64,000 bases of DNA from Alcanivorax sp. DSM 26293 (GTDB lineage: Bacteria; Pseudomonadota; Gammaproteobacteria; Pseudomonadales; Alcanivoracaceae). Where the stretch lies: contig NZ_FNUM01000006.1 in NCBI RefSeq assembly GCF_900107995.1, positions 1 through 64,000 of the forward strand, given 5' to 3'. Each line of letters opens with the position of its first letter. The first letter of the stretch is position 1. The notes beneath the pieces are model-generated. The model was not told the origin of the DNA. It saw only the letters and a program-made list of their open reading frames with translations, and made no database searches. Shown here piece by piece: positions 49,505 to 60,221 of the stretch. Both the position numbers and the translations under genes were made by a program.

Positions 49505-49858
49505 ATGAACGAACGGCGCCGGGCCAACCGCGTTGCCTTTGATGGCGAAGCCACACTGATCTTTCAGCATGACACCCTGTCCGTGGAACTGGTGGACTTG
49601 TCCGTGATGGGCGCCCAGGTGCACAGCAGCCAGCCACTGGCTCTGCCCGACGCCTCCCCGGTTACCCTGGCCATTACTCTGGAAGACTCGGACATTCATC
49701 TGACCCTGCCTGGCACCGTAAAACGCCAGCAGGGCCGGGAAATCGGCATCATGTTCAGCCGCCCCTCCGTGGATGACATGCAGCACCTGCGCCGTCTGGT
49801 CGTGCTGCACCAGGGAGACGATGGGGAAGACGAACCCGGCAACCTGCTGCCACGCTAA
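49505..49858 (+). CDS. PilZ-domain protein
   Basis: 117 residues. The cyclic-di-GMP binding signature is present: RRRANR near the N-terminus (RxxxR) and VDLSVMGAQV (DxSxxG). A single PilZ domain fills the protein, so it is likely a c-di-GMP receptor that works on a partner. It lies 16 bp before the ECF sigma gene and 70 bp after ettA, perhaps co-transcribed with the sigma gene. Confidence 0.82.
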   Translation: MNERRRANRVAFDGEATLIFQHDTLSVELVDLSVMGAQVHSSQPLALPDASPVTLAITLEDSDIHLTLPGTVKRQQGREIGIMFSRPSVDDMQHLRRLVVLHQGDDGEDEPGNLLPR

Positions 49859-49874
49859 CCAACCGGAACTGCCA

Positions 49875-50486
49875 ATGGCCGATGCCCAGCTGGAAGATCC
49901 CCGATTTATTGAAAAACTCCGTCAGGGGGATCGGGCCGCCTTCGGACAACTGGTCAGAGGCCATCACAACATGCTGCTGGCTACCGCCCGCACACTACTG
50001 AACCCGGCAGATGCCGAGGAAGCGGTGCAGGATGCATGGATAGCCGCGCACAGATCCATCGCAAAATTCGAGGGGCGCAGCCTGCTGCGCACCTGGCTGA
50101 CACGCATCGTCATCAACCAGGCCAAAATGATGCTCAGAAAGCGTGGCCGGGAAATCCAGTTTGATCCCACCAATGACCCTGATGCGCTGGCACACCGCTT
50201 CCACGATGACGGCCACTGGCAACACCCACCGCAACACTGGGAACTGTCCGGCCCGGACAATCTTCTTACCCGTGAAGAGCTGCGCCGCTGCATGGAGAAA
50301 CACCTTCACTTCATGCCAGACACCCAGCGTCTGGTGCTGGAGCTGCGCGACCTGCAAGGCCTGCCCGCGGAAGATGTCTGTAACATGCTGGAAATCAGTG
50401 CATCCAATGTGCGGGTATTACTCCACCGGGCAAGGGCCCGTCTGTTCGAAATGGTGGATCATTTTCAGGAAACCGGGGAATGCTAG
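49875..50486 (+). CDS. ECF-type RNA polymerase sigma factor
   Basis: 203 residues. Region 2 is visible as DRAAFGQLVRGHHNMLLATARTLLNPADAEEAVQDAWIAAHRSIAKFEGRSLLRTWLTRIVINQ (in segments) and region 4 as LPAEDVCNMLEISASNVRVLLHRARARLFEMV. A polar linker of about 60 residues is longer than usual. It lies 9 bp before a zinc-finger anti-sigma gene, the standard pair. The motif GTAAC-N15-GCATC found ahead of doxX, arsM and the small ORF is a candidate for its promoter. No such motif precedes its own gene. Confidence 0.92.
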   Translation: MADAQLEDPRFIEKLRQGDRAAFGQLVRGHHNMLLATARTLLNPADAEEAVQDAWIAAHRSIAKFEGRSLLRTWLTRIVINQAKMMLRKRGREIQFDPTNDPDALAHRFHDDGHWQHPPQHWELSGPDNLLTREELRRCMEKHLHFMPDTQRLVLELRDLQGLPAEDVCNMLEISASNVRVLLHRARARLFEMVDHFQETGEC

Positions 50487-50495
50487 GAGTCAACA

Positions 50496-50729
50496 ATGCT
50501 TAAGTGCAAGCATGTTACCGAAAAGGCCGACGCCCTGGTCGACGGCAGCACGCTCAGCTGGCGGGAGCGCCTTGCCCTGCGTCTGCACCTGCTGATGTGC
50601 GGTCATTGCCGCCGCTACGTCCGGCAGATGGGCGCCCTGCTGGGCTTTCTCCCGCGCCAGGAAACCCCGCTGGAGGATGCCCACACCGAGGTCATCCTGA
50701 AAAAGCTGGACTCGTTGCAGGACTCGTAA
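50496..50729 (+). CDS. zinc-finger (ZAS-type) anti-sigma factor
   Basis: 77 residues with the zinc anti-sigma motif: CKHVTEKADALVDG near the N-terminus and LRLHLLMCGHCRRYVRQM (HxxxCxxC). No membrane helix, so it is cytoplasmic like ChrR/RsrA-type sensors. The cysteines could sense oxidants or thiol-binding metalloids and release the sigma factor. It is probably translated with the sigma gene, 9 bp away. Confidence 0.85.
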   Translation: MLKCKHVTEKADALVDGSTLSWRERLALRLHLLMCGHCRRYVRQMGALLGFLPRQETPLEDAHTEVILKKLDSLQDS

Positions 50730-50800
50730 TCCTGCCCTGCCTCTCCACGCCCTGCCCCGCGGTCTGTTCGCATATTCGTACTGCCGATCACTCCTCAGCC

Positions 50801-50825
50801 GTAACATCCTTCCGCCAACCGCATC
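50801..50825 (+). promoter_or_regulatory. candidate ECF promoter of doxX
   Basis: GTAAC (50801-50805) and GCATC (50821-50825) are 15 bp apart, the same pattern as ahead of arsM and the small ORF. It lies 109 bp before the DoxX start, in the only intergenic space between the anti-sigma gene and doxX. Confidence 0.65.
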
Positions 50826-50933
50826 CATAACACACAACCGGAGCGCGCCTCGCAGAGCCCCCTTCCCGGCGTTAACGCCGGCTGTGATCCGGAGCGCGAC
50901 AGCCCACGACAACGACCACAACGAGGCAGACGC

Positions 50934-51605
50934 ATGCAGAGCATTGGTACCTGGGCGATGAGAATTCATTCCTGGCTGAATCAGACCCGCAGGCTGGATT
51001 TCCTTGCCCCCCTGTTGCTACGTCTTTTCCTGGCTAGCGTGTTTATTTCGGCGGGCTGGAACAAGGCAGCCAGCTTCGACTCCACCGTGGCATGGTTTGG
51101 CAACCCGGACTGGGGGCTGGGATTACCCTTGCCCACCCTGATGGCATTTCTGGCCACCGCCACAGAACTGGTCGGCGGCATTTTGCTGCTGCTGGGTCTT
51201 GCCACCCGTTATCTGGCCATCCCCCTGATGATTACCATGCTGGTGGCAATGTTTGCCGTGCATGGAGAAAATGGCTGGTTCGCCATTGCTCCTTCCAATC
51301 CGGAGACCAGCATGGCCCAGCCCCTTGCGGCCATCGGCATTCCTGCGGCAACGCGCAGCCTGGAAAATAGCGAAGAGGTGGGCAAACGTCTGCGTGCGGC
51401 GAAAGGCCTGCTCCGTGAGCACGGCCAGTACCGCTGGCTGACGGAGAAAGGGCATTTTGTCATTCTTAACAACGGCATCGAATTCGCCGCCACTTACTTC
51501 ATCATGCTACTGGTGCTGTTCTTCCACGGAGCGGGACGTTATCTGAGTCTGGATTACTGGCTTGCCAGACATGTCGCCCCGCAAGGGGAAGGCGGCGGGA
51601 AATAA
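50934..51605 (+). CDS. DoxX-family membrane protein
   Basis: 223 residues with four to five helices and the DoxX pattern (FLAPLLLRLFLASVFISAGWNKA, LGLPLPTLMAFLATATELVGGILLLLGLATR, FIMLLVLFFHGAGRYLSLDYWL). DoxX-like proteins often accompany ECF sigma factors and oxidative or thiol stress. A 60-residue loop between helices 3 and 4 is longer than in short DoxX proteins. The start may also be ATG 50949 or 50958. Preceded by the GTAAC-N15-GCATC motif. Confidence 0.85.
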   Translation: MQSIGTWAMRIHSWLNQTRRLDFLAPLLLRLFLASVFISAGWNKAASFDSTVAWFGNPDWGLGLPLPTLMAFLATATELVGGILLLLGLATRYLAIPLMITMLVAMFAVHGENGWFAIAPSNPETSMAQPLAAIGIPAATRSLENSEEVGKRLRAAKGLLREHGQYRWLTEKGHFVILNNGIEFAATYFIMLLVLFFHGAGRYLSLDYWLARHVAPQGEGGGK

Positions 51606-51694
51606 ACTCCTTGAGAACCCTCGCCTGCTGCTGACAACGGTGTGTCCTGACGAACGAGAACCAAGAGATAGACGCCGGAACCGCGGCAGGCCCT

Positions 51695-52123
51695 CTACGG
51701 GCTGCCCGGAATGCCCGGGGTGGCACGGTCTCCGGCCAGCCATTTTGCGCTGTCCACCACGTCGAACATCAGGCTGATGCCATTGATAGCCAGCAACAGA
51801 GCGGCCAGGCCAAGCTCCATCATGGAGGCATCGGCACGGAAGCCACTCTCCGATAACAGCATCAACAGATAGATTACCAGCGGCCCCCAGGCAATCAGGT
51901 GCGGGATCGACAGGACCTTGTTCATGCCCCGATACACCCACATCAGGGGCCCGTTAGTCACCAGTACCAGTAAGGCGGCCAGCGCCCCGGCCTGCCCCAC
52001 AGTGCTTTCCAGCAGGAAAAAGGGCAGCACATTCACTGGTATCAATATGCCGGCCACCCAGATCTGTACCCACAGTGGCAAGCTCCGCCAGGAGCGCCAG
52101 ATATCTGCCATCCGATCCATCAT
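51695..52123 (-). CDS. small four-helix membrane protein, paralogue of 59781-60221
   Basis: 142 residues with about four helices. It aligns end to end with the protein at 59781-60221: both have a LPxWxQxWV start, then GQAxALAxLLVL, GMNKxxSxxHLxAWxPL, and NxISLxFDxVDAxxWxxGDR. The start at ATG 52123 is close after pstB with GGAGG 9 bp upstream, so it is probably the last gene of the pst operon. No named family is recognised. Confidence 0.75.
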   Translation of the reverse strand: MMDRMADIWRSWRSLPLWVQIWVAGILIPVNVLPFFLLESTVGQAGALAALLVLVTNGPLMWVYRGMNKVLSIPHLIAWGPLVIYLLMLLSESGFRADASMMELGLAALLLAINGISLMFDVVDSAKWLAGDRATPGIPGSP

Positions 52124-52124
52124 G

Positions 52125-52889
52125 CTAGCCGGCCTCCCCGGCACAATAGGCCGCGGTGATGGGGTGGCTGGGGTGTTCGAACACCTGTCGGCAGCCACTG
52201 GATTCCACCACACAGCCACAGCCTTCCTGTACCCAGCAGACCGTCACGCTGTCAGCAATACGTCGGGCCTGGGCCAGGTTGTGAGTCACCATCAACAGGG
52301 TATAACGCCCCTTGAGCGACACAATCAGTTCTTCCACCACTTTTGAGGACACCGGGTCCAGCGCCGAGCAGGGCTCGTCCAGCAGCAGCACCTGCGGTTC
52401 CAGCACCAGCGCCCGGGCAATGCACAGCCGCTGCTGTTGCCCGCCGGACAATCCCAACGCCGACTGCAACAGCCGGTCTTTGACTTCCTCCCACAGCCCC
52501 ACCGCCCGCAGCGCTTGTTCGGCACGGGGGTCGCGCTCACGGCGCGGCACACCGTGCTCCGCCAGGGGAAAACGCAGGTTGTCGATAATGGAGAGCGGAA
52601 AAGGATTGGGCTGCTGGAACACCATGCCAATCCGGCGGCGCAGGGCCGTGGCATCCTGGCTGGCAGACAGCGCCTCTCCGCCGAGCATAATGGTGCCACT
52701 GACCCGGCACCCGGGGAGGCTGTCCGTCATGCGATTGATGCTGGCCAGCAGACTGCTCTTGCCACAGCCACTGGGGCCCACCAGAGCCATCAGCTCGCCA
52801 GCCTGCACCGTCAGGCTGGCCTGCTCTATGGCAGCCTGATTGCCGTAATAGACGGAGACCTGTTGCAGTTCCAGGGTCGGGGACGTCAT
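52125..52889 (-). CDS. pstB: phosphate ABC transporter ATP-binding protein
   Basis: 254 residues. Walker A GPSGCGKSSLLASINRM, signature LSGGQQQRLCIARALVL, Walker B VLLLDEPCSALDPVS. GRYTLLMVTHNLAQARRIAD is the PstB-type H-loop region. Overlaps pstA by 4 bp. No phoU follows, unlike the usual pst operon; the small membrane protein occupies that position. Phosphate is the default substrate; given the arsM context arsenate exposure or a related oxyanion is worth considering. Confidence 0.9.
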   Translation of the reverse strand: MTSPTLELQQVSVYYGNQAAIEQASLTVQAGELMALVGPSGCGKSSLLASINRMTDSLPGCRVSGTIMLGGEALSASQDATALRRRIGMVFQQPNPFPLSIIDNLRFPLAEHGVPRRERDPRAEQALRAVGLWEEVKDRLLQSALGLSGGQQQRLCIARALVLEPQVLLLDEPCSALDPVSSKVVEELIVSLKGRYTLLMVTHNLAQARRIADSVTVCWVQEGCGCVVESSGCRQVFEHPSHPITAAYCAGEAG

Positions 52890-53716
52890 TGCCAGGCTCC
52901 TTGTGCCGGGCGCAGCCAGCGCCGCACCAGCAGATTCAGTATCACCAGTATGGCCACCAGCACCAGGCCGGTGGCCGCCGCCCGGGGCATGCCGCCGGGT
53001 ACGTTCATGGCCAGATCATAGATGTGCACGCTCAATGCCCGGCCGGAATCCAGCAACGAATCCGGCTGACGGAGCACATAACCGGCAGTGAAAAGCAGCA
53101 CGGCGGTTTCCGCCAATGCCCGACCAATGCTGAGAATAATGCCCACCGCAATGCCCGGTGCCGCCTGGGGCACCAGAATGCGCCTGACCCAGCCCCAGCG
53201 GCTGATCGACAGAGCTTCACTGGCCTGCCGGTAGGACATCGGCACCCCACGCAGGGCCTGCTCGGCACTGCGTATCATCAGCGGCAAGACCATCAGCGCC
53301 AGCGCCAGACCGCCACTGAGAATGGAGAAACCCAGTCCCAGGCTGATGGCGAAAAACTGGTAACCGAACAGCCCGTAAACGATGGATGGCACCGCCGCCA
53401 GCATATCCAGCACCCCGCCCAGCCACTGGGCACGGCGGGTGCCCGCCGGTACCTGCTCGCTCAGATAGAGCGCACAACCCAGCCCCACCGGCACCGCCAC
53501 CAGCAGACACACCGCCAGGATCCAGCCGGTGCTGACCAGCAGCGCAGCAATGCCGCCAGTGCGGCCCGCCTGGCGCGGGTCTTCCAGCAGGAAGTCCATG
53601 GAAAGCACGCCAGCACCCTGCTCCAGCAGGGACCACAACATCAGGCCCATGGGCACCAGCACCGCCAGCAACAGCAGCCCGCCGATCATGCCGGCAAGGC
53701 GATCAGGCCATCTCAT
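52886..53716 (-). CDS. pstA: phosphate ABC transporter permease PstA
   Basis: 276 residues with six helices. PstA-type features: GGIAALLVSTGWILAVCLLVAVPVGLGCALYLSE, VPSIVYGLFGYQFFAISLGLG, LPLMIRSAEQALRGVPMSYRQASEALSISRWGWVRRILVPQAAPGIAVGIILSIGRALAETA (the EAA-like loop). Overlaps both pstB and pstC, so tightly coupled. Confidence 0.9.
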   Translation of the reverse strand: MRWPDRLAGMIGGLLLLAVLVPMGLMLWSLLEQGAGVLSMDFLLEDPRQAGRTGGIAALLVSTGWILAVCLLVAVPVGLGCALYLSEQVPAGTRRAQWLGGVLDMLAAVPSIVYGLFGYQFFAISLGLGFSILSGGLALALMVLPLMIRSAEQALRGVPMSYRQASEALSISRWGWVRRILVPQAAPGIAVGIILSIGRALAETAVLLFTAGYVLRQPDSLLDSGRALSVHIYDLAMNVPGGMPRAAATGLVLVAILVILNLLVRRWLRPAQGAWQ

Positions 53717-54563
53717 GCCGCTCTCCCCGCAGACGCCAGCTCAACATCAACAGCACCGCCGTCACCAGCAGCAGCAACAACCCGCTGACAAACAGGGCCA
53801 CCCGGTGGTCCCCGGTCGCATAGGCCATTTCCAGAGCGATATTGGCGGTCAGGGTGCGCACCGGGTCGAACAGGGACGTGGGCCACTGCACCACATTCCC
53901 GGCCACCATCAACACCGCCATGGTCTCCCCCAGGGCGCGGCCAAATTGCAGTACCAGACCACTGACAATGGCCGGCCCGGCCTGGGGCAACAGCACCCGG
54001 CGCAGCATACCCACCCGGGACAGGGACAGTGCCTGCCCCGCCTGCAGATAACGGGCGGGCAACTGGCCCAGCGCCGTGTCGGTGACCAGCAACGCCAGCG
54101 GCAGAATCATCAGTGCCAGCACCAGCGAGGCGGCCAGCCAGGACGCCCCCGGCGGCGCCCACTGATTGATCCAGGGGACCAGCACCAACATGCCCCACAA
54201 CCCATACACCACCGACGGAATCCCGGCCATCAGCTCCACCAACGCCAATACCGGCCGACGAATCAGCGGCGCGAAATAGCGTAGCCAGGCCGCCAGCAGC
54301 ACCGCCAGCGGGCCGGCAATCACCAGCGCCAGCACGCTCACCAGCACGGAGCCGGCAATCATGGCCGCCATGCCATAACGGGTCTGGCCAGGCTGCCAGT
54401 CGTTGCGCCACAGGGCACTGCCATGCTCGACCAGAAACGGCGCGGACTGTATCAACAGCACGGCCACGATGCCGCCCAGCACCAGCACCGCCGCCGCGCC
54501 AGTGAGGCGCAGCAGCCAGCTCAGCAGCGAATCAGCGTGAAACCGGGAGGAAGTAGTAATCAT
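53703..54563 (-). CDS. pstC: phosphate ABC transporter permease PstC
   Basis: 286 residues, six helices. PstC features: GMAAMIAGSVLVSVLALVIAGPLAVLLAAWLRYF, MAGIPSVVYGLWGMLVLVPWI, LPLALLVTDTALGQLPARYLQAGQALSLSRVGMLRRVLLPQAGPAIVSGLVLQFGRALGET. The start at ATG 54563 overlaps the end of pstS by 32 bp; another ATG at 54578 is possible. Confidence 0.88.
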   Translation of the reverse strand: MITTSSRFHADSLLSWLLRLTGAAAVLVLGGIVAVLLIQSAPFLVEHGSALWRNDWQPGQTRYGMAAMIAGSVLVSVLALVIAGPLAVLLAAWLRYFAPLIRRPVLALVELMAGIPSVVYGLWGMLVLVPWINQWAPPGASWLAASLVLALMILPLALLVTDTALGQLPARYLQAGQALSLSRVGMLRRVLLPQAGPAIVSGLVLQFGRALGETMAVLMVAGNVVQWPTSLFDPVRTLTANIALEMAYATGDHRVALFVSGLLLLLVTAVLLMLSWRLRGERHEMA

Positions 54564-55335
54564 GGTAGGTCGCGGCACGGTCCGGGTCAGTCATGAAGTC
54601 CAGCAGCTGGCTGGCCGTCTCGGACAGCTCGCCCTGGCTGACCAGATTCAGCTCCCGACTCAGGGGATAGCGCCCCTGATCAACGCTTTCCAGTGTGGCA
54701 GGCACACCGGACAGGGGCAGCAAGCGCAGGGGGGCGCCGGCATCCGCTTCGTAGATGGCAGTGCCAATGGACACGTAACCAATGGCATTCACATCATTGG
54801 CCACCGCCTTGATGCCCTGCTGGTTTTCACCAATGACCATATCCGGTTGCACCTGGTCATTGTTCAGGCCGAAATGGGCCAGAAAGAGCTCCTGGGTAGA
54901 ACGACCATCCGCCTTGTGCACCACGGTGATGGCAGCGTCATCGCCGCCCAATGATGACCAGTTTTGCTGTTCCCCGGTGTAAATGGCGACAATTTCCGCA
55001 TTACTGAGAGCGGTCACCGGGTTCGCCGCGTTAACGATCATGGCGATGCCGTCGCGGCCGATCAGGTGAGCGGTGAGATCCTGCTCATCTGTCTTGAGCG
55101 CCCGGCTGACCATACCGAAATCCGCCAGCCCCTGGCGGGCATCGCTGATGCCGCGACCGGAACCCCCGCTTTGCACATCAACCTGAATACCGCTTTGTGT
55201 TTCAAATTGCTCAGCCAGATCCGCCATCAACGGTGAGATGGTACTGGAACCGGTAATGACCAGCTTGTCCTCTGCCGGCTGGCAGCCGCTCAACAGCCAC
55301 ACCAATAAAAAGCCTTTCAACGTCTTCCCGATCAT
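54532..55335 (-). CDS. pstS: PstS-like phosphate-binding lipoprotein
   Basis: 267 residues. Lipobox LSGC (Cys18) makes it a lipoprotein. ITGSSTISPLMADLAEQFE and QSGGSGRGISDARQGLADFGMVSRALK carry the PBP-like oxyanion-binding loops of the PstS family, and VVHKADGRSTQELF the third. It heads the pstSCAB operon and is divergent from arsM across 174 bp. No clear PHO box is visible upstream, so regulation may differ from the housekeeping pst system. Confidence 0.87.
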   Translation of the reverse strand: MIGKTLKGFLLVWLLSGCQPAEDKLVITGSSTISPLMADLAEQFETQSGIQVDVQSGGSGRGISDARQGLADFGMVSRALKTDEQDLTAHLIGRDGIAMIVNAANPVTALSNAEIVAIYTGEQQNWSSLGGDDAAITVVHKADGRSTQELFLAHFGLNNDQVQPDMVIGENQQGIKAVANDVNAIGYVSIGTAIYEADAGAPLRLLPLSGVPATLESVDQGRYPLSRELNLVSQGELSETASQLLDFMTDPDRAATYHDYYFLPVSR

Positions 55336-55410
55336 GTGTCGTCCTTATTCACCTTTTCCTGCCGCTTTGGATGCCATCTTGACGCAAAAATTACAGCCAG
55401 AGACGCTCGT

Positions 55411-55486
55411 CGGTGTAACCTGATCAGAGAGACGGCATCAATATGTCATCGGGCCCCATCATTGCCACTGATCATACGTTACACCG
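55411..55486. promoter_or_regulatory. inverted CGGTGTAAC pair in the pstS-arsM divergent region
   Basis: CGGTGTAAC followed by CTGATCA (55411-55426) is mirrored on the minus strand by CGGTGTAAC (55486-55478) followed by a TGATCA. One copy faces arsM and one pstS. A third, palindromic copy (CGGTGT-A-ACACCG, 56587-56599) lies ahead of the small ORF. The plus-strand copies double as -35 parts of the proposed ECF promoter; the pstS-facing copy lacks GCATC at the same spacing. Confidence 0.6.
55414..55439 (+). promoter_or_regulatory. candidate ECF promoter of arsM
   Basis: TGTAAC (55414-55419), then 15 bp, then GCATC (55435-55439). Identical elements and spacing occur ahead of the small ORF at 56590-56615, and with GTAAC ahead of doxX. 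The arsM start is 70 bp further on. Confidence 0.7.
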
Positions 55487-55509
55487 ATGCACCCACCAGA
55501 GGATCAACA

Positions 55510-56553
55510 ATGCGTGAAGAGGTACAGAACTACTACGGCCAACAGCTGCACTCCAGTGACGATCTGCAGACCAATGCTTGCTGTGACCAGGAGCCACCGG
55601 CCTATCTGAAACCCCTTCTTGCGCAGCTCCATGATGAAGTTGTCATGCGCTACTACGGCTGCGGTCTGGTGGCCCCCCAACAATTGAAGGGCATGCGTAT
55701 TCTCGACCTGGGCTCCGGCTCCGGGCGCGACGTCTATCTCCTTTCTGCCCTGGTGGGTGAAGACGGTGAAGTGGTGGGCGTGGACATGACCGACGAACAA
55801 CTGGAGGTCGCCCGCCGACATCAGGATTATCACCGTGACACCTTCGGCTACGCGAAGAGCAATGTGCGCTTTCTGAAGGGCTATATCGAAGAACTGGACA
55901 AACTGGATCTGGAAGACAGCTACTTCGATATCATCATTTCCAACTGCGTGATTAACCTCAGCACTGACAAGCCCAAGGTGCTGCGGGATGTGAAACGTCT
56001 GCTGAAGCCCGGGGGCGAATTCTATTTCTCCGATGTGTATGCAGATCGCCGTGTGCCGGATAACCTGCGCAACGATCCGGTCCTTTATGGAGAATGTCTG
56101 GCCGGCGCCCTGTACTGGAATGATTTCCTTAACCTGGCCAAGCAGAGTGGCTTTGCCGATCCGCGCCTGGTGGAATCCCGCCGCCTGACCATCGAGAACC
56201 CGGATATCGAAGCCCGCCTGGGTCGGCAGCGTTTCTATTCCGCCACCTACCGACTCTTCAACATTGATGGTCTGGAACCCGCCTGTGAAGACTACGGCCA
56301 AGCCGTGGTCTATAAAGGCACGGTGGATCAACATCCCCACGCTTTTTCGCTGGACGATCACCATGTGATCGAAACCGGCAAGGTATTTCCGGTGTGCGGC
56401 AACACCTGGCTGATGCTGGAAAAAAGCCGCTTCGCCGAGCACTTCACTTTTATCGGGAACTTCGACACCCATTACGGCATCTTTGAAGGGTGTGGATTAA
56501 ATGTTCCCTTTGAAGATAACGATGCCGGCAACGATGGAGCTCCATGCTGCTGA
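55510..56553 (+). CDS. arsM: arsenite S-adenosylmethionine methyltransferase
   Basis: 347 residues. The SAM-binding motif is RILDLGSGSGRDVYLLS (63-79) with VVGVDMTDEQL. Candidate arsenite-binding cysteines are Cys24/25 (NACC), Cys51 (YYGCGL), Cys146 (SNCVINLS) and Cys196 (YGECLAGALYW). The 50-residue gap between the last two equals that between Cys174 and Cys224 of the algal ArsM, and the surrounding residues match the family. It would methylate As(III) to MMA/DMA, for detoxification or as the first step to arsenosugars. The C-terminal GAPCC may bind metal. ATG 55510 follows AGAGGATC. Confidence 0.9.
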   Translation: MREEVQNYYGQQLHSSDDLQTNACCDQEPPAYLKPLLAQLHDEVVMRYYGCGLVAPQQLKGMRILDLGSGSGRDVYLLSALVGEDGEVVGVDMTDEQLEVARRHQDYHRDTFGYAKSNVRFLKGYIEELDKLDLEDSYFDIIISNCVINLSTDKPKVLRDVKRLLKPGGEFYFSDVYADRRVPDNLRNDPVLYGECLAGALYWNDFLNLAKQSGFADPRLVESRRLTIENPDIEARLGRQRFYSATYRLFNIDGLEPACEDYGQAVVYKGTVDQHPHAFSLDDHHVIETGKVFPVCGNTWLMLEKSRFAEHFTFIGNFDTHYGIFEGCGLNVPFEDNDAGNDGAPCC

Positions 56554-56589
56554 CAAGGCAATATCACGCCTGCTGTCATCGCCCCCCGG

Positions 56590-56615
56590 TGTAACACCGA
56601 TTCTCTCCACGCATC
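56590..56615 (+). promoter_or_regulatory. candidate ECF promoter of the small ORF / VTT-reductase operon
   Basis: TGTAAC (56590-56595), 15 bp, GCATC (56611-56615), identical in form to the arsM promoter candidate. The -35 part lies in a palindrome CGGTGTAACACCG. A start codon with a strong ribosome site follows 33 bp later. Confidence 0.7.
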
Positions 56616-56647: not shown

Positions 56648-56785
56648 ATGCAACGAGCCATCAACGTGCTGATGTTAATGGCTCCCGGTTGCTTCACCCC
56701 GGCGGGCACGGCCTATGCTCCCGCCGAGGAGGAGCGTCGCTCGCTCTGGACCCTGATTGACCAACCCTGGATTTACCAGGGTTAA
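56648..56785 (+). CDS. 45-residue hypothetical peptide of the arsM cluster
   Basis: MQRAINVLMLMAPGCFTPAG followed by a polar tail (APAEEERRSLWTLIDQPWIYQG). The start has an excellent CAGGAGAG ribosome site and lies just after the candidate ECF promoter, which argues that it is real despite its length. The N-terminus is hydrophobic, with a cysteine where a lipobox could be, though PGC is not a standard lipobox. It ends 18 bp before the VTT-reductase gene. Function unknown; it might be a leader peptide. Confidence 0.5.
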   Translation: MQRAINVLMLMAPGCFTPAGTAYAPAEEERRSLWTLIDQPWIYQG

Positions 56786-56803: not shown

Positions 56804-58948
56804 ATGAATGTTCGCAAACTCATCTTGCTGGCGGTTTTTGCCATTCTGATCGCCGGCTACTTTTTTTTCGATCTTGGCCAGTACCTGAGCCTGGAGTACA
56901 TCAAGAATCAACAAGCCTCTTTTGATGCCCTCTACCAGGAAAACCCGGCACTGATTCTTGGCGGCTTTTTTATCATGTATGTGGTGGTTACCGCCCTGAG
57001 CCTGCCTGGCGCCGCCATCATGACACTGGCCGCCGGCGCCCTGTTCGGTTTCTGGGCCGCCTTGCTGCTGGTGTCTTTTGCGTCCTCCATGGGTGCCACC
57101 CTGGCTTTTCTCGCTTCCCGCTTTCTGTTTCACGATACGGTGCAGCAACGCTTCGGCGATCGCCTGAAAAAACTTAACGACGGTGTCAGAAAAGACGGGG
57201 CGTTCTATCTTTTTACCCTGCGTCTGGTTCCGGCTTTTCCGTTCTTTGTCATCAACCTGGTCATGGGCCTCACCCCTATCAAGGTGCGCACCTTCTACTG
57301 GGTCAGCCAGGTGGGCATGCTGGCCGGCACCGCTGTCTATGTGTTGGCGGGCACTCAACTGGGGCAAATAGAGAGCGCCAGCGGGTTGCTGTCACCGGAA
57401 CTGATCGGCGCCTTTGTATTGCTGGGCATCTTTCCCTGGATTGCCAAAGCCGTCATGGCGCAACTGCAGGCCCGCAAGGTCTATCGTGGCTGGCAGAAAC
57501 CGGACCATTTTGATCGCAACCTGATCGTCATCGGTGCCGGTTCTGCCGGACTGGTGAGCGCCTATATCGCCGCCACCGTCAAAGCCAAAGTCACCCTGAT
57601 CGAAAAACACAAAATGGGCGGCGACTGCCTGAATACCGGCTGTGTGCCCTCCAAGGCATTGATCAAAAGCGCACGACTGGCCTGGCACGACAAGGAAGCG
57701 GACAAGTACGGCTTCGATGCCATCCGCAGCGAGTTTCGTTTCAGCAAACTGATGGCCCGGGTGCACAAGGTCATCGAAAAGATCGAACCCCATGATTCCG
57801 TGGAGCGTTATACGGAACTGGGCGTGGATTGCCGCCAGGGTGAAGCGCGCATCGTCTCCCCCTGGGAAGTAGAAATTCGCAACGGAGACAGCACAGAAAC
57901 ACTCACCGCCCGCAGCATCATCATTGCCAGCGGCGCACGCCCCTTTGTGCCGCCCATTCCCGGCATCGAAGACATGGATATCCTGACCTCTGACAATCTC
58001 TGGGAGCTTCAGGAGCAACCCGGACGCCTGGTGGTGCTGGGTGGCGGTCCCATTGGCTGCGAGCTGGCACAGACCTTTGCCCGCCTGGGCAGCCAGGTCA
58101 TGCAGGTGGAGATGCTGCCGCGCATCATGCCCCGCGAGGATGACGATGCCGCCGCCCTGGTTACCGCCGCCCTGCACGAAAGCGGTGTCGATGTGATGAC
58201 CGAACACAAGGCCGTGCGCTTTGCCCGGGAAGGTGACGACAAGGTGCTGTATGTGGAACACAACGGCGAAGAAAAGCGGCTGACATTCGATGCGGTACTG
58301 GTGGCCGTGGGGCGGCGCGCCAACACCGATGGCCTGGGCCTGGACGCGCTGAACCTGCCCACCAACGGTAACGGCACCGTCACGGTCAACGAGCAACTGC
58401 AAAGCCGCTACCCGAACATCTACGCCTGCGGCGACGTGGCCGGGCCTTACCAGTTCACCCACACCGCGGCACACCAGGCCTGGTATGCCGCCGTCAATGC
58501 CCTGTTCGGTTCCTTGAAACGGTTCAAGGTTGATTACCGGGTTATTCCCTGGGCCACGTTCACCGACCCGGAAGTGGCCCGTGTAGGGCTCAACGAACAG
58601 GACGCCGAGGAGCAAGGCGTCGATTACGAAGTGACCCGCTACGGCATCGACGACCTGGACCGGGCCATTGCCGACAGCAATGACCACGGTTTCGTGAAAG
58701 TGATTACCGCCAGGGGCAGCGACAAGATTCTCGGCGTGACCATCGTCGGCAGCGGTGCCAGCGATCTGATTGCCGAATACGTGCTGGCCATGAAACACGG
58801 CCTGGGCCTGAACAAGATCCTAGGCACCATCCACATCTATCCCACCATGGCGGAAGCCAACAAGTTTGCTGCCGGCGAATGGAAGAAAGCCCACAAGCCC
58901 GAGGGGGTATTGCGCTGGGTAAAACGCTTCCATAACTGGCGACGTTAG
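56804..58948 (+). CDS. VTT (TVP38/TMEM64) membrane domain fused to FAD disulfide oxidoreductase
   Basis: 714 residues. Residues 1-230 are a DedA/VTT-type membrane domain (LPGAAIMTLAAGALFGFWAALL, FYLFTLRLVPAFPFFVINLVMGLT). From about 238 a pyridine nucleotide-disulfide reductase follows: FAD motif LIVIGAGSAGLVSAY, redox-active pair GGDCLNTGCVPSK, NAD motif LVVLGGGPIGCELAQ, YACGDVAGPYQFTHTA, and a C-terminal dimerisation domain with HIYPTMAEA. It resembles mercuric reductase without the C-terminal vicinal cysteines, so a different substrate is likely. The fusion suggests electron transfer at the membrane. It is encoded with DUF547 downstream. Confidence 0.9.
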   Translation: MNVRKLILLAVFAILIAGYFFFDLGQYLSLEYIKNQQASFDALYQENPALILGGFFIMYVVVTALSLPGAAIMTLAAGALFGFWAALLLVSFASSMGATLAFLASRFLFHDTVQQRFGDRLKKLNDGVRKDGAFYLFTLRLVPAFPFFVINLVMGLTPIKVRTFYWVSQVGMLAGTAVYVLAGTQLGQIESASGLLSPELIGAFVLLGIFPWIAKAVMAQLQARKVYRGWQKPDHFDRNLIVIGAGSAGLVSAYIAATVKAKVTLIEKHKMGGDCLNTGCVPSKALIKSARLAWHDKEADKYGFDAIRSEFRFSKLMARVHKVIEKIEPHDSVERYTELGVDCRQGEARIVSPWEVEIRNGDSTETLTARSIIIASGARPFVPPIPGIEDMDILTSDNLWELQEQPGRLVVLGGGPIGCELAQTFARLGSQVMQVEMLPRIMPREDDDAAALVTAALHESGVDVMTEHKAVRFAREGDDKVLYVEHNGEEKRLTFDAVLVAVGRRANTDGLGLDALNLPTNGNGTVTVNEQLQSRYPNIYACGDVAGPYQFTHTAAHQAWYAAVNALFGSLKRFKVDYRVIPWATFTDPEVARVGLNEQDAEEQGVDYEVTRYGIDDLDRAIADSNDHGFVKVITARGSDKILGVTIVGSGASDLIAEYVLAMKHGLGLNKILGTIHIYPTMAEANKFAAGEWKKAHKPEGVLRWVKRFHNWRR

Positions 58949-58979: not shown

Positions 58980-59762
58980 ATGATGATTGCGCGTTTACTG
59001 CTACCGTTACTGTTATTGGTTGCCAGCCCACTCCTTGCCTTTGATCACCAGCGCTGGGACCGGTTGCTGGCTGAGCATGTTCAGTGGCAACGGAGCGGGG
59101 TTGCCACCGGTGTGGATTACCCCGGTTTCCGGGCTGATCGGGCCGCACTGGACCAGTACCTGCAAGCCCTGTCGCTGGTCTCCGGTGCCGACTTCCAGCG
59201 CTGGTCACAGGACGAACAACTGGCATTTCTGATCAACGCCTACAATGCCTTTACCATCGATCTGATCCTGCGCCAGGATTCCCTGCCCGACTCCATCCGT
59301 GATATCGGCTCTTTTTTCTCCGGCCCCTGGGATCAACGTTTCTTTACCCTGCTGGGTGAAACTCGCACCCTGGATGAAGTGGAGCATGAGATGATTCGGG
59401 GCAACCCGGCGCTGATGGACCCCCGCATTCACTTTTCAGTCAACTGCGCCTCGGTGGGCTGCCCGGCACTGCGACCGGAAGCCTATCGTGCAGAGACACT
59501 GGAACAACAACTGGCCGACAGTACCCGCCGCTTTCTTTCCGATCGCCAGCGCAATCGCTTCAACAAGACAGGGCCACGCCTGGAAGTGTCGAAGATTTTC
59601 GACTGGTACGAAGAGGATTTCGTGGATGCCGCCGGCAGCCTGCACCATTACCTTTTGCAGTATGCGGATACGCTGGAGATACCCACCGACCACCGAAAGT
59701 CACTGGACGATGAGACCCTGAAGATACAGTTTCTGGATTATGACTGGTCACTGAATCAATAA
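58980..59762 (+). CDS. secreted DUF547 protein
   Basis: 260 residues with a signal peptide (MMIARLLLPLLLLVASPLLA). DUF547 features: FLINAYNAFTIDLIL, IHFSVNCASVGCPALRPEAY with two conserved cysteines, and FDWYEEDF. Members are periplasmic or secreted and frequently sit next to VTT-oxidoreductase and arsenic or thiol genes; a papain-like fold has been suggested. It starts 32 bp after the reductase gene and is likely co-transcribed. Confidence 0.85.
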   Translation: MMIARLLLPLLLLVASPLLAFDHQRWDRLLAEHVQWQRSGVATGVDYPGFRADRAALDQYLQALSLVSGADFQRWSQDEQLAFLINAYNAFTIDLILRQDSLPDSIRDIGSFFSGPWDQRFFTLLGETRTLDEVEHEMIRGNPALMDPRIHFSVNCASVGCPALRPEAYRAETLEQQLADSTRRFLSDRQRNRFNKTGPRLEVSKIFDWYEEDFVDAAGSLHHYLLQYADTLEIPTDHRKSLDDETLKIQFLDYDWSLNQ

Positions 59763-59780: not shown

Positions 59781-60221
59781 ATGGAAGGCCACACCGCGTC
59801 GCACCGCCTACTGGGCATTTGGTACTCGTTCCGGAATTTACCGCCGTGGCTGCAGGGCTGGGTGCTACTGATCCTGATGCCACTGAACGGTGCCAGCCTG
59901 CTGTTTCTGGACAGCTTCAGTGGCCAGGCCACCGCTCTGGCCCTGCTACTGGTGCTGACGGTCAATTTTTCGCTCATGTGGCACCACGGAGGCATGAACA
60001 AGGACATGTCCCTGGTTCATCTGCTCGCCTGGATTCCGCTGGAAATGGGGTTGCTAGGCCAGCTAGCCGGCATCTGGGGAGACGACTTCCTCACTCCCAC
60101 GCAATGGGCCTTCACCGTGGCCGTCGTGATGGTCAACGCGATCAGTCTGTTCTTCGATATCGTCGACGCCTGGTGCTGGGCGCAGGGAGATCGGGTGACG
60201 CTGCATCCAAAACATAATTAA
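59781..60221 (+). CDS. small four-helix membrane protein, paralogue of 51695-52123
   Basis: 146 residues, four helices (WVLLILMPLNGASLLFL, ATALALLLVLTVNFSLMW, HLLAWIPLEMGLLGQLAG, WAFTVAVVMVNAISLFFDIV). It shares the GMNKxxSxxHLxAW and ISLxFDxVD motifs with its paralogue 8 kb away. It starts 19 bp after DUF547 and ends the plus-strand cluster. Its stop codon lies in the 60216-60375 repeat. No named family is recognised. Confidence 0.78.
   Translation: MEGHTASHRLLGIWYSFRNLPPWLQGWVLLILMPLNGASLLFLDSFSGQATALALLLVLTVNFSLMWHHGGMNKDMSLVHLLAWIPLEMGLLGQLAGIWGDDFLTPTQWAFTVAVVMVNAISLFFDIVDAWCWAQGDRVTLHPKHN

Follow-up and report, generated by a model that had tools for sequence, protein, structure and literature searches.

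The sigma factor locus and its recurring motif

Comparative analysis was applied to a 64,000-nucleotide stretch of DNA from Alcanivorax sp. DSM 26293 (contig NZ_FNUM01000006.1, positions 1 to 64,000), referred to here as the window. It encodes an extracytoplasmic function (ECF) sigma factor with an adjacent zinc-finger anti-sigma factor (ZAS), the hvfX gene of a system for a copper-binding ribosomally synthesised and post-translationally modified peptide (RiPP), the methyltransferase gene arsM and a gene for a membrane protein in which a VTT domain is fused to a reductase (VTT-reductase) (Table 1). The pattern GTAAC-N15-GCATC has four exact matches in the window, all on the plus strand and starting at positions 50380, 50801, 55415 and 56591. 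The distribution of this motif makes it likely that the ECF sigma factor and its ZAS partner form a switch that co-controls the copper-RiPP module and a second module of ArsM, ArsS and VTT-reductase.

The sigma factor contains sigma2 and sigma4 domains only and is encoded next to a small protein with an HxxxCxxC motif, as in ECF/ZAS pairs of the RsrA/MseR type. An ECF sigma/anti-sigma pair at 49875-50729 had been named in a preliminary description of the window, and the domains Sigma70_r2, Sigma70_r4_2 and zf-HC2 confirm it. The anti-sigma factor would bind zinc and hold the sigma factor inactive until it is freed by a signal. The same description had listed three motif copies (50801-50825, 55415-55439 and 56591-56615) in intergenic DNA and aimed at the genes named behind them. 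All three were found there, 109, 71 and 33 bp before the respective start codons, and a fourth exact copy inside the sigma gene had been overlooked. The gene behind the first site had been called doxX; the motif does stand ahead of it, while the gene itself is identified by the model NF050144 as hvfX.

Table 1. Genes and motif copies of the sigma factor locus (positions in the window)
Feature	Position	Strand	Basis
PilZ-domain protein gene	49505..49858	+	PF07238, 56.5 bits; lies shortly before the sigma gene
ECF sigma factor, 203 aa	49875..50486	+	PF04542 (Sigma70_r2), PF08281 (Sigma70_r4_2)
Intragenic motif, exact; probable promoter for the anti-sigma gene	50380..50404	+	Motif scan; codon constraint
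Zinc-finger anti-sigma factor (ZAS), 77 aa	50496..50729	+	PF13490 (zf-HC2); NF052368, 63.6 over cut-off 50; HxxxCxxC at residue 31
Exact motif ahead of hvfX	50801..50825	+	Motif scan; 109 bp before start codon
hvfX (DoxX family), copper-RiPP maturation protein	50934..51605	+	NF050144, 237.5 bits versus cut-off 80
Exact motif ahead of arsM	55415..55439	+	Motif scan; 71 bp before start codon
arsM, arsenite S-adenosylmethionine (SAM) methyltransferase, 347 aa	55510..56553	+	Five closest PDB sequences are arsenic methyltransferases
Exact motif ahead of p45 and VTT-reductase gene	56591..56615	+	Motif scan; 33 bp before start codon
p45, 45-codon open reading frame, probably dispensable	56648..56785	+	No Pfam or NCBIfam family match
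VTT-domain membrane protein fused to a flavin adenine dinucleotide (FAD) disulphide reductase	56804..58948	+	PF09335, PF07992, PF02852; CLNTGC at residue 275
DUF547 protein gene behind the VTT-reductase gene, possibly part of the module	58980..59762	+	PF04784

By chance, 0.05 matches are expected in the window (100 dinucleotide shuffles, largest count 1), in agreement with the earlier estimate of far less than one match in 64 kb. In the complete genome sequence (3,706,254 bases in 22 contigs), eight exact matches were counted versus two with the reversed pattern. Four of the eight lie outside the window: one is ahead of arsS, and three (L002-L004) fall inside long open reading frames (ORFs) of unrelated genes and were set aside as targets. 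The relaxed pattern GTAAC-N16-CATC gave 21 matches versus eight in the reversed control. Its 13 extra loci include the site ahead of hvfA and one intergenic candidate (L278). Ten others were set aside for overlap with an ORF of at least 86 codons on either strand, although in one of these ten (L270) the match also runs up to the start codon of a 408-codon ORF, and L280 was left unclassified by the locus script. The candidate targets in the genome are thus six: the anti-sigma gene, hvfX, arsM, the VTT-reductase gene, arsS and hvfA. That the sites in the window represent chance or a repeat element is hardly conceivable and was rejected: three of the eight exact genome matches do fall within unrelated ORFs, but the shuffles predict next to none in the window, the spacer sequence varies from site to site and the motif recurs ahead of orthologues over several genera.

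Conservation of the motif within the family

Forty-six genomes of the family were searched, and the motif was counted as present at no more than one mismatch. A sigma factor match at E<=1e-20 was obtained in 40 of the 46, of which 36 were counted as carrying an intact close orthologue; the truncated gene of G026 and the matches of about 30% identity in G031, G033 and G037 were left out. Such a scan of the genome and its relatives had been proposed with the preliminary description, and it revealed that the motif is conserved ahead of arsS and hvfA orthologues. All 33 upstream regions were read for arsS, which is present in 33 of the 46 genomes, and 32 carry the motif (24 exact and eight with one mismatch). 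The gene hvfB was found in 43 genomes, and all 43 upstream regions of its partner hvfA were read: 31 contain an exact motif, five have one mismatch and seven are worse, so that 36 of 43 lie within one mismatch. Shuffled upstream regions, which preserve base content only and not dinucleotides, gave no exact match in 600 each for arsS, arsM and hvfA. At hvfX, which directly follows the ZAS gene in 10 family genomes, the motif in between is exact in nine and lacking in G027. In A. jadensis T9 (L243), the ZAS gene is followed by neither a motif nor hvfX before the next gene begins, and hvfX of this strain would be expected to be transcribed with the hvf operon. Ahead of the VTT-reductase gene, the copy between arsM and VTT is exact in the source genome and its four closest relatives and has one mismatch in G001; in G022, which has no arsM, the VTT gene is likewise preceded by an exact copy. 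One-mismatch entries for VTT in G039 and G040 were dropped, as they are due to a distant reductase match upstream of arsM.

The picture is more varied for arsM, which was detected in 41 family genomes (35 sigma-positive and six sigma-negative). Among the 35, 18 have a motif of their own and eight lack one but have arsM behind the ECF-ZAS genes, with a gap of 140-174 bp in seven. In G027, arsM has no motif of its own and lies 810 bp behind ECF-ZAS with hvfX in between. Of the six sigma-negative genomes, two have the motif ahead of arsM and four do not.

An association with the sigma gene was seen at hvfA, where the motif is present in 35/35 sigma-positive versus 1/8 sigma-negative genomes (Fisher p = 2.5e-7, uncorrected for kinship). 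The lone sigma-negative genome with the motif is G041, which is 64%-complete and whose sigma gene may simply be missing from the incomplete assembly. In a tree of HvfB, three changes are required to account for the sigma-negative rows, and G041 represents one of these. One sigma-negative clade, G019-G020-G026, branches among sigma-positive genomes (support 89/76), and a second consists of G032-G033-G036-G037. In both clades hvfA lacks the motif, and the motif is absent ahead of hvfA in the complete sigma-less genomes. Two losses of the sigma gene would be the simplest reading, although the tree does not prove the direction of change. The remaining promoter is recognisable ahead of hvfA in the first clade but its core has changed, to GTAAT/GCCTC in G020 and G026 and to GTGAT/GTCTC in G019. 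No motif was found ahead of hvfA in the second clade, whose region was left unaligned for remnants, and a rescan of the whole G032 hvfA region detected nothing under two mismatches. Over all 46 genomes, 354 exact matches were counted versus 70 with the reversed pattern, with means of 8.6 versus 1.6 in sigma-positive genomes.

A motif copy within the sigma gene

The fourth copy in the window is located 92 bp before the ATG of the anti-sigma gene, in the part of the sigma gene that encodes the sigma-4 region. The homologous site was aligned in 37 sigma genes, from the 36 family genomes and from Motiliproteus L257. It is exact in 27 of the 37 and within one mismatch in all 37. As this site codes for CNMLEISASN, and these residues are largely conserved, the copy could reflect conserved sigma-4 amino acids only and be no promoter. 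When the 128 codon columns in which at least 25 genes share the residue were ranked by their departure from background codon use, the three most constrained columns were those that spell the motif. The alanine column contains GCA in 31/32 genes, compared to a background of 12.9% and to 22% in the next most GCA-rich alanine column; the cysteine column is TGT in 37/37 (background 21.7%) and the serine column TCC in 30/37. Random synonymous codons reproduce an exact match in only 0.85% of draws. These statistics come from 37 related sigma genes and are uncorrected for kinship. Nevertheless, the amino acids do not account for the full constraint on the codons, which renders the purely protein-coding explanation quite improbable.

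We read this constraint as selection on the DNA rather than the protein, and the copy itself as a putative promoter that serves the anti-sigma gene and also, in eight species, arsM. A scan of positions 50300-51000 for sigma-70 promoters found none. An intragenic promoter for the anti-sigma gene would also account for those arsM genes that lie behind ECF-ZAS and have no separate motif. A genome that is seemingly losing the system was observed in G026 (L202), where the sigma and anti-sigma genes are truncated and arsM is a fragment.

The motif outside the family

A search of 293 genomes of the order detected arsS in 104, of which 94 lie outside the family. Of these 94 loci, 40 were read, with one or a few taken from a family. 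Four of the 40 have the motif ahead of arsS at no more than one mismatch. A sigma factor match at 1e-25 is present in 11 of the 40 genomes, and all four motif-bearing loci are among them. With the looser core GCRTC, the counts are 4/11 for sigma-positive genomes versus 2/29 for the others. In G049 (family f5), the ECF-ZAS genes are divergent from an arsS-VTT-DUF547 cluster, and one exact motif precedes arsS while another lies within the sigma gene; the same arsS-VTT-DUF547 order occurs in G126. G122 (family f42) has the gene order ECF-ZAS-hvfA-hvfX with two exact motifs after ZAS and none before arsS. Eight further genomes (f5 and f29), G126 among them, were read after the results had been seen and stand outside these counts. 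In G126 the arsS motif is exact. One mismatch to the GCRTC core was found ahead of arsS in G213 and G168, and no arsS motif in G141, G192, G309, G252 and G290.

Sigma factor or another regulator

Several observations weigh against control by this sigma factor. Counts across related genomes are not independent, and sigma-negative family genomes still contain a mean of 4.3 exact matches versus 1.2 for the reversed control. The exact arsS motif is kept in G019 and G020, which have no sigma match at E<=1e-20, and in G026 with its truncated sigma gene. Two genomes without a sigma orthologue also carry the motif before arsM, exactly in G032 and with a single mismatch in G037. Conversely, G038 has no motif ahead of arsS, and in nine of the 35 sigma-positive genomes arsM is preceded neither by a motif of its own nor by the sigma operon. 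Outside the family, the motif is missing from the arsS upstream region in seven of the 11 sigma-positive genomes. More than one mismatch was found at 36 of the 40 arsS loci, so that the link between motif and arsS is not universal, and in G126, where no sigma gene was matched at 1e-25, the motif before arsS is exact. Finally, in the 1.5 kb that precede the sigma gene, no copy (at most one mismatch) was detected through which the sigma factor could regulate its own gene.

The motif could therefore be recognised by a different regulator, be it a DNA-binding protein or a further sigma factor, with the ECF gene merely sharing the regulon. The three genomes that keep an exact arsS motif without an intact sigma orthologue speak for this, as do the exact motifs at G032 arsM and G126 arsS and the other, distant ECF genes (about 30% identity) present in G019, G020, G026 and G032. 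On the other hand, the motif is non-palindromic and has a constant 15-bp gap and a single direction, as expected of a promoter, its -35 half is the same as in the promoters of the ECF sigma factors SigF and EcfF (see below), and its presence ahead of hvfA follows the sigma gene closely. A different regulator is thus considered rather doubtful. Motifs kept without the sigma gene might be explained either by recent losses or by another sigma factor that uses some of the promoters. The ECF sigma factor remains the favoured regulator, and the tie between motif and ECF sigma factor that the preliminary description had suggested is strengthened by the hvfA motif that follows the sigma gene, by the apparent constraint on DNA within the sigma gene and by the layout in G049.

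Predicted functions of the candidate target genes

In the source genome, the hvfABC operon on contig 10 is preceded by GTAAC-N15-TCATC (one mismatch), with 103 bases between the motif and hvfA. This first gene, itself a candidate target, is the predicted precursor gene of a copper-binding RiPP with EGKCG repeats. HvfB is a member of the MNIO family and passes NF003818 (431.5 versus a cut-off of 360); HvfA exceeds the cut-off of the repeat-domain model NF050137 (39.0 over 19.5) but stays below that of the equivalog model NF050188 (58.9 under 95). An EGKCG-repeat precursor, the MNIO enzyme HvfB and HvfX are hence all present, as in HvfA/oxazolin-type systems. By family membership, the hvf peptide is expected to be modified and to bind copper.

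The product of arsM has its best PDB match in 5evj (E 3.6e-111). The cysteines that align with those of 5evj and 4kw7, presumably CrArsM and CmArsM, are kept, and we take them to be the catalytic ones. ArsS is a 319-residue radical-SAM protein that scores 459.6 bits against the equivalog TIGR04167 (cut-off 300), and the motif is located 38 bp ahead of its gene. Homology suggests that the products of arsM, the VTT-reductase gene and arsS add methyl groups to arsenic and turn it into a carbon-arsenic compound. Among the 40 loci read outside the family, nine have a VTT match close to arsS and three an ArsM match, and on this basis the VTT-reductase is taken as part of the ArsM/ArsS module. The small ORF p45 is cut by a stop in G012 and mostly deleted in G016, and it was dropped as a functional peptide.

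It might be argued that ArsM, ArsS and the VTT-reductase serve a pathway other than arsenic, for example one for another thiol or a selenium compound, tied to copper or redox stress. ArsM does fall short of the thresholds set for the NCBIfam ArsM models that it matches (NF038099, 91.9 under 400; PRK11873, 178.9 under 263), its partners in the predicted regulon are copper-RiPP genes, and no classic ars resistance gene is among the six candidate targets, ars genes not having been searched for genome-wide. Set against this are the equivalog score of ArsS and the conserved cysteines of ArsM, and a non-arsenic pathway is regarded as unlikely.

Additional motif sites and neighbouring genes

At L278 (G000:C15:64197-64221), GTAAC-N15-ACATC is located 32 bp before a gene for a DUF1223 protein (PF06764, 158.5 bits) with a CSSC motif, a possible further target; the protein had no match in the NCBIfam scan. 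In G001 (L039) and G008 (L046), an exact motif lies 23 and 29 bp, respectively, before a membrane protein gene that is possibly a species-specific target. An AhpC-TSA/redoxin domain was identified in the L039 protein, the only one of these tested, and a listed match in G010 resembles the two sites. G003 (L041) and G016 (L054) have an exact motif 113 bp before a gene for a 136-residue protein that appears CBS-domain-like by eye.

Between hvfX and arsM, the window contains a minus-strand phosphate ABC transporter cluster (52125-55335), of which the PstS-type protein was confirmed and the rest was read from the ORFs. The pstS gene is divergent from arsM in eight of 30 annotated arsM loci. Phosphate uptake is the usual entry route of arsenate. 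Two small flanking proteins (51695-52219 and 59781-60221) are about 43% identical to each other, and the first has no Pfam or NCBIfam match.

Comparison with known systems

The ECF16 group is associated with an NrsF-type membrane anti-sigma factor, and CC3252, the negative regulator of Caulobacter SigF, presumably belongs to this NrsF family and thus to a type other than ZAS. The neighbour of the sigma gene in the window is instead the 77-aa zf-HC2 protein. In Caulobacter crescentus, the ECF sigma factor SigF recognises GTAACC-N16-CGAA and controls a DUF2282-DUF692-DUF2063-DoxX operon under metal stress (PMC3511200), and EcfF (ECF16) of Bradyrhizobium japonicum uses GTAAC(g/a)-N14-15-(c/t)CG(t/a) (PMC3420878). 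The -35 half GTAAC is that of both promoters, but the -10 half differs: where the published promoters have CGAA or CG(t/a) at their own spacings, GCATC is found at N15 here and GCGTC in some relatives. As its -35 half is shared with SigF and EcfF promoters, the motif does not represent a new type. The main text of neither paper mentions 'arsen' (PMC3511200, PMC3420878).

A small anti-sigma factor beside the sigma gene and a targeted doxX cluster are also features of sigma-E/MseR in Neisseria meningitidis, where MseR resembles the ZAS family, and of RpoE2 in Haemophilus influenzae, where a 67-residue protein is encoded beside the sigma gene (PMC2893595, PMC7907618). The Neisseria -35 sequence GTMAGBWTT is near the one found here, whereas its -10 sequence CGTCTAAH differs; msrAB is a main target in these systems, and the available accounts mention no arsM or arsS (PMC2893595, PMC7907618). 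In Cupriavidus metallidurans, the ECF-type gene rpoQ stands beside gigPABT, with gigT encoding a DoxX protein, but unlike here the available account lists arsM with the ars genes, apart from gig (PMC11647585). Radical-SAM ArsS of Synechocystis acts with ArsM in the first steps to arsenosugars, and the available text of that work mentions neither sigma-factor control nor a VTT-reductase (PMC8552651). In a genome survey of copper RiPPs, sigma genes are named for Buf1 clusters, and 'arsen' does not occur in the main text (PMC12452194). An intragenic promoter in an ECF circuit has been described for Caulobacter sigV, within the cabp coding sequence; it drives the sigma gene from an upstream gene, while the one proposed here lies inside the sigma gene and points towards the anti-sigma gene (PMC13171946). 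In the literature covered, which excludes most subscription journals and was available in part, no report on sigma-factor control of arsM or arsS and no paper on an ECF sigma factor in Alcanivorax were found. The preliminary description had considered the regulon as undescribed; this would still apply to the ArsM/ArsS part, while the copper-RiPP module is a known ECF target and the -35 half was known.

A proposed regulatory circuit

In the circuit that we infer from these comparisons, including promoter function, sigma dependence, inducer and product, GTAAC (-35) and GCATC (-10 region) with their 15-bp spacer would act together as the promoter that the ECF sigma factor recognises. Its small cytoplasmic partner, the zinc-binding anti-sigma factor encoded next door, would keep it inactive until a thiophilic or oxidising insult, with copper, As(III) and hypochlorite as candidates for this presumed signal, frees it. 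The freed sigma factor would then transcribe the anti-sigma gene from the promoter within its own coding sequence and provide negative feedback, together with the arsM-VTT genes that follow in eight species. It would likewise transcribe hvfABC and hvfX, leading to the copper-binding RiPP, and arsM, the VTT-reductase gene and arsS, leading to arsenic methylation and a carbon-arsenic compound. The arsenic part of the arsenic-methylation or thiol-redox regulon suggested earlier is retained, given the motif ahead of arsS, but the predicted set comprises copper-RiPP and ArsM/ArsS genes rather than thiol-redox genes.

This predicted regulon is well supported by comparison. What is new is the apparent extension of an ECF-controlled copper-RiPP regulon to ArsM/ArsS, and the putative intragenic feedback promoter is its most unusual feature. 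We lean, with some reserve, towards the wider view that the ECF/ZAS pair couples a copper-binding peptide to carbon-arsenic synthesis within a metal and oxidant stress response that is not ArsR-controlled, and that a brake written into sigma-4 codons makes the anti-sigma factor and, in some species, arsM. A codon-selected promoter in the sigma-4 domain that is aimed at the anti-sigma gene may be a feedback layout overlooked in other ECF pairs.

A defined sigma/anti-sigma pair with six candidate promoters in one genome and sigma-less relatives makes the proposed control of arsM and arsS in marine heterotrophs directly testable. The regulon hints at one signal for copper-RiPP and organoarsenic synthesis. 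If the wider view is right, arsenosugar-type synthesis in these marine bacteria would belong to the response to metal and oxidant stress.

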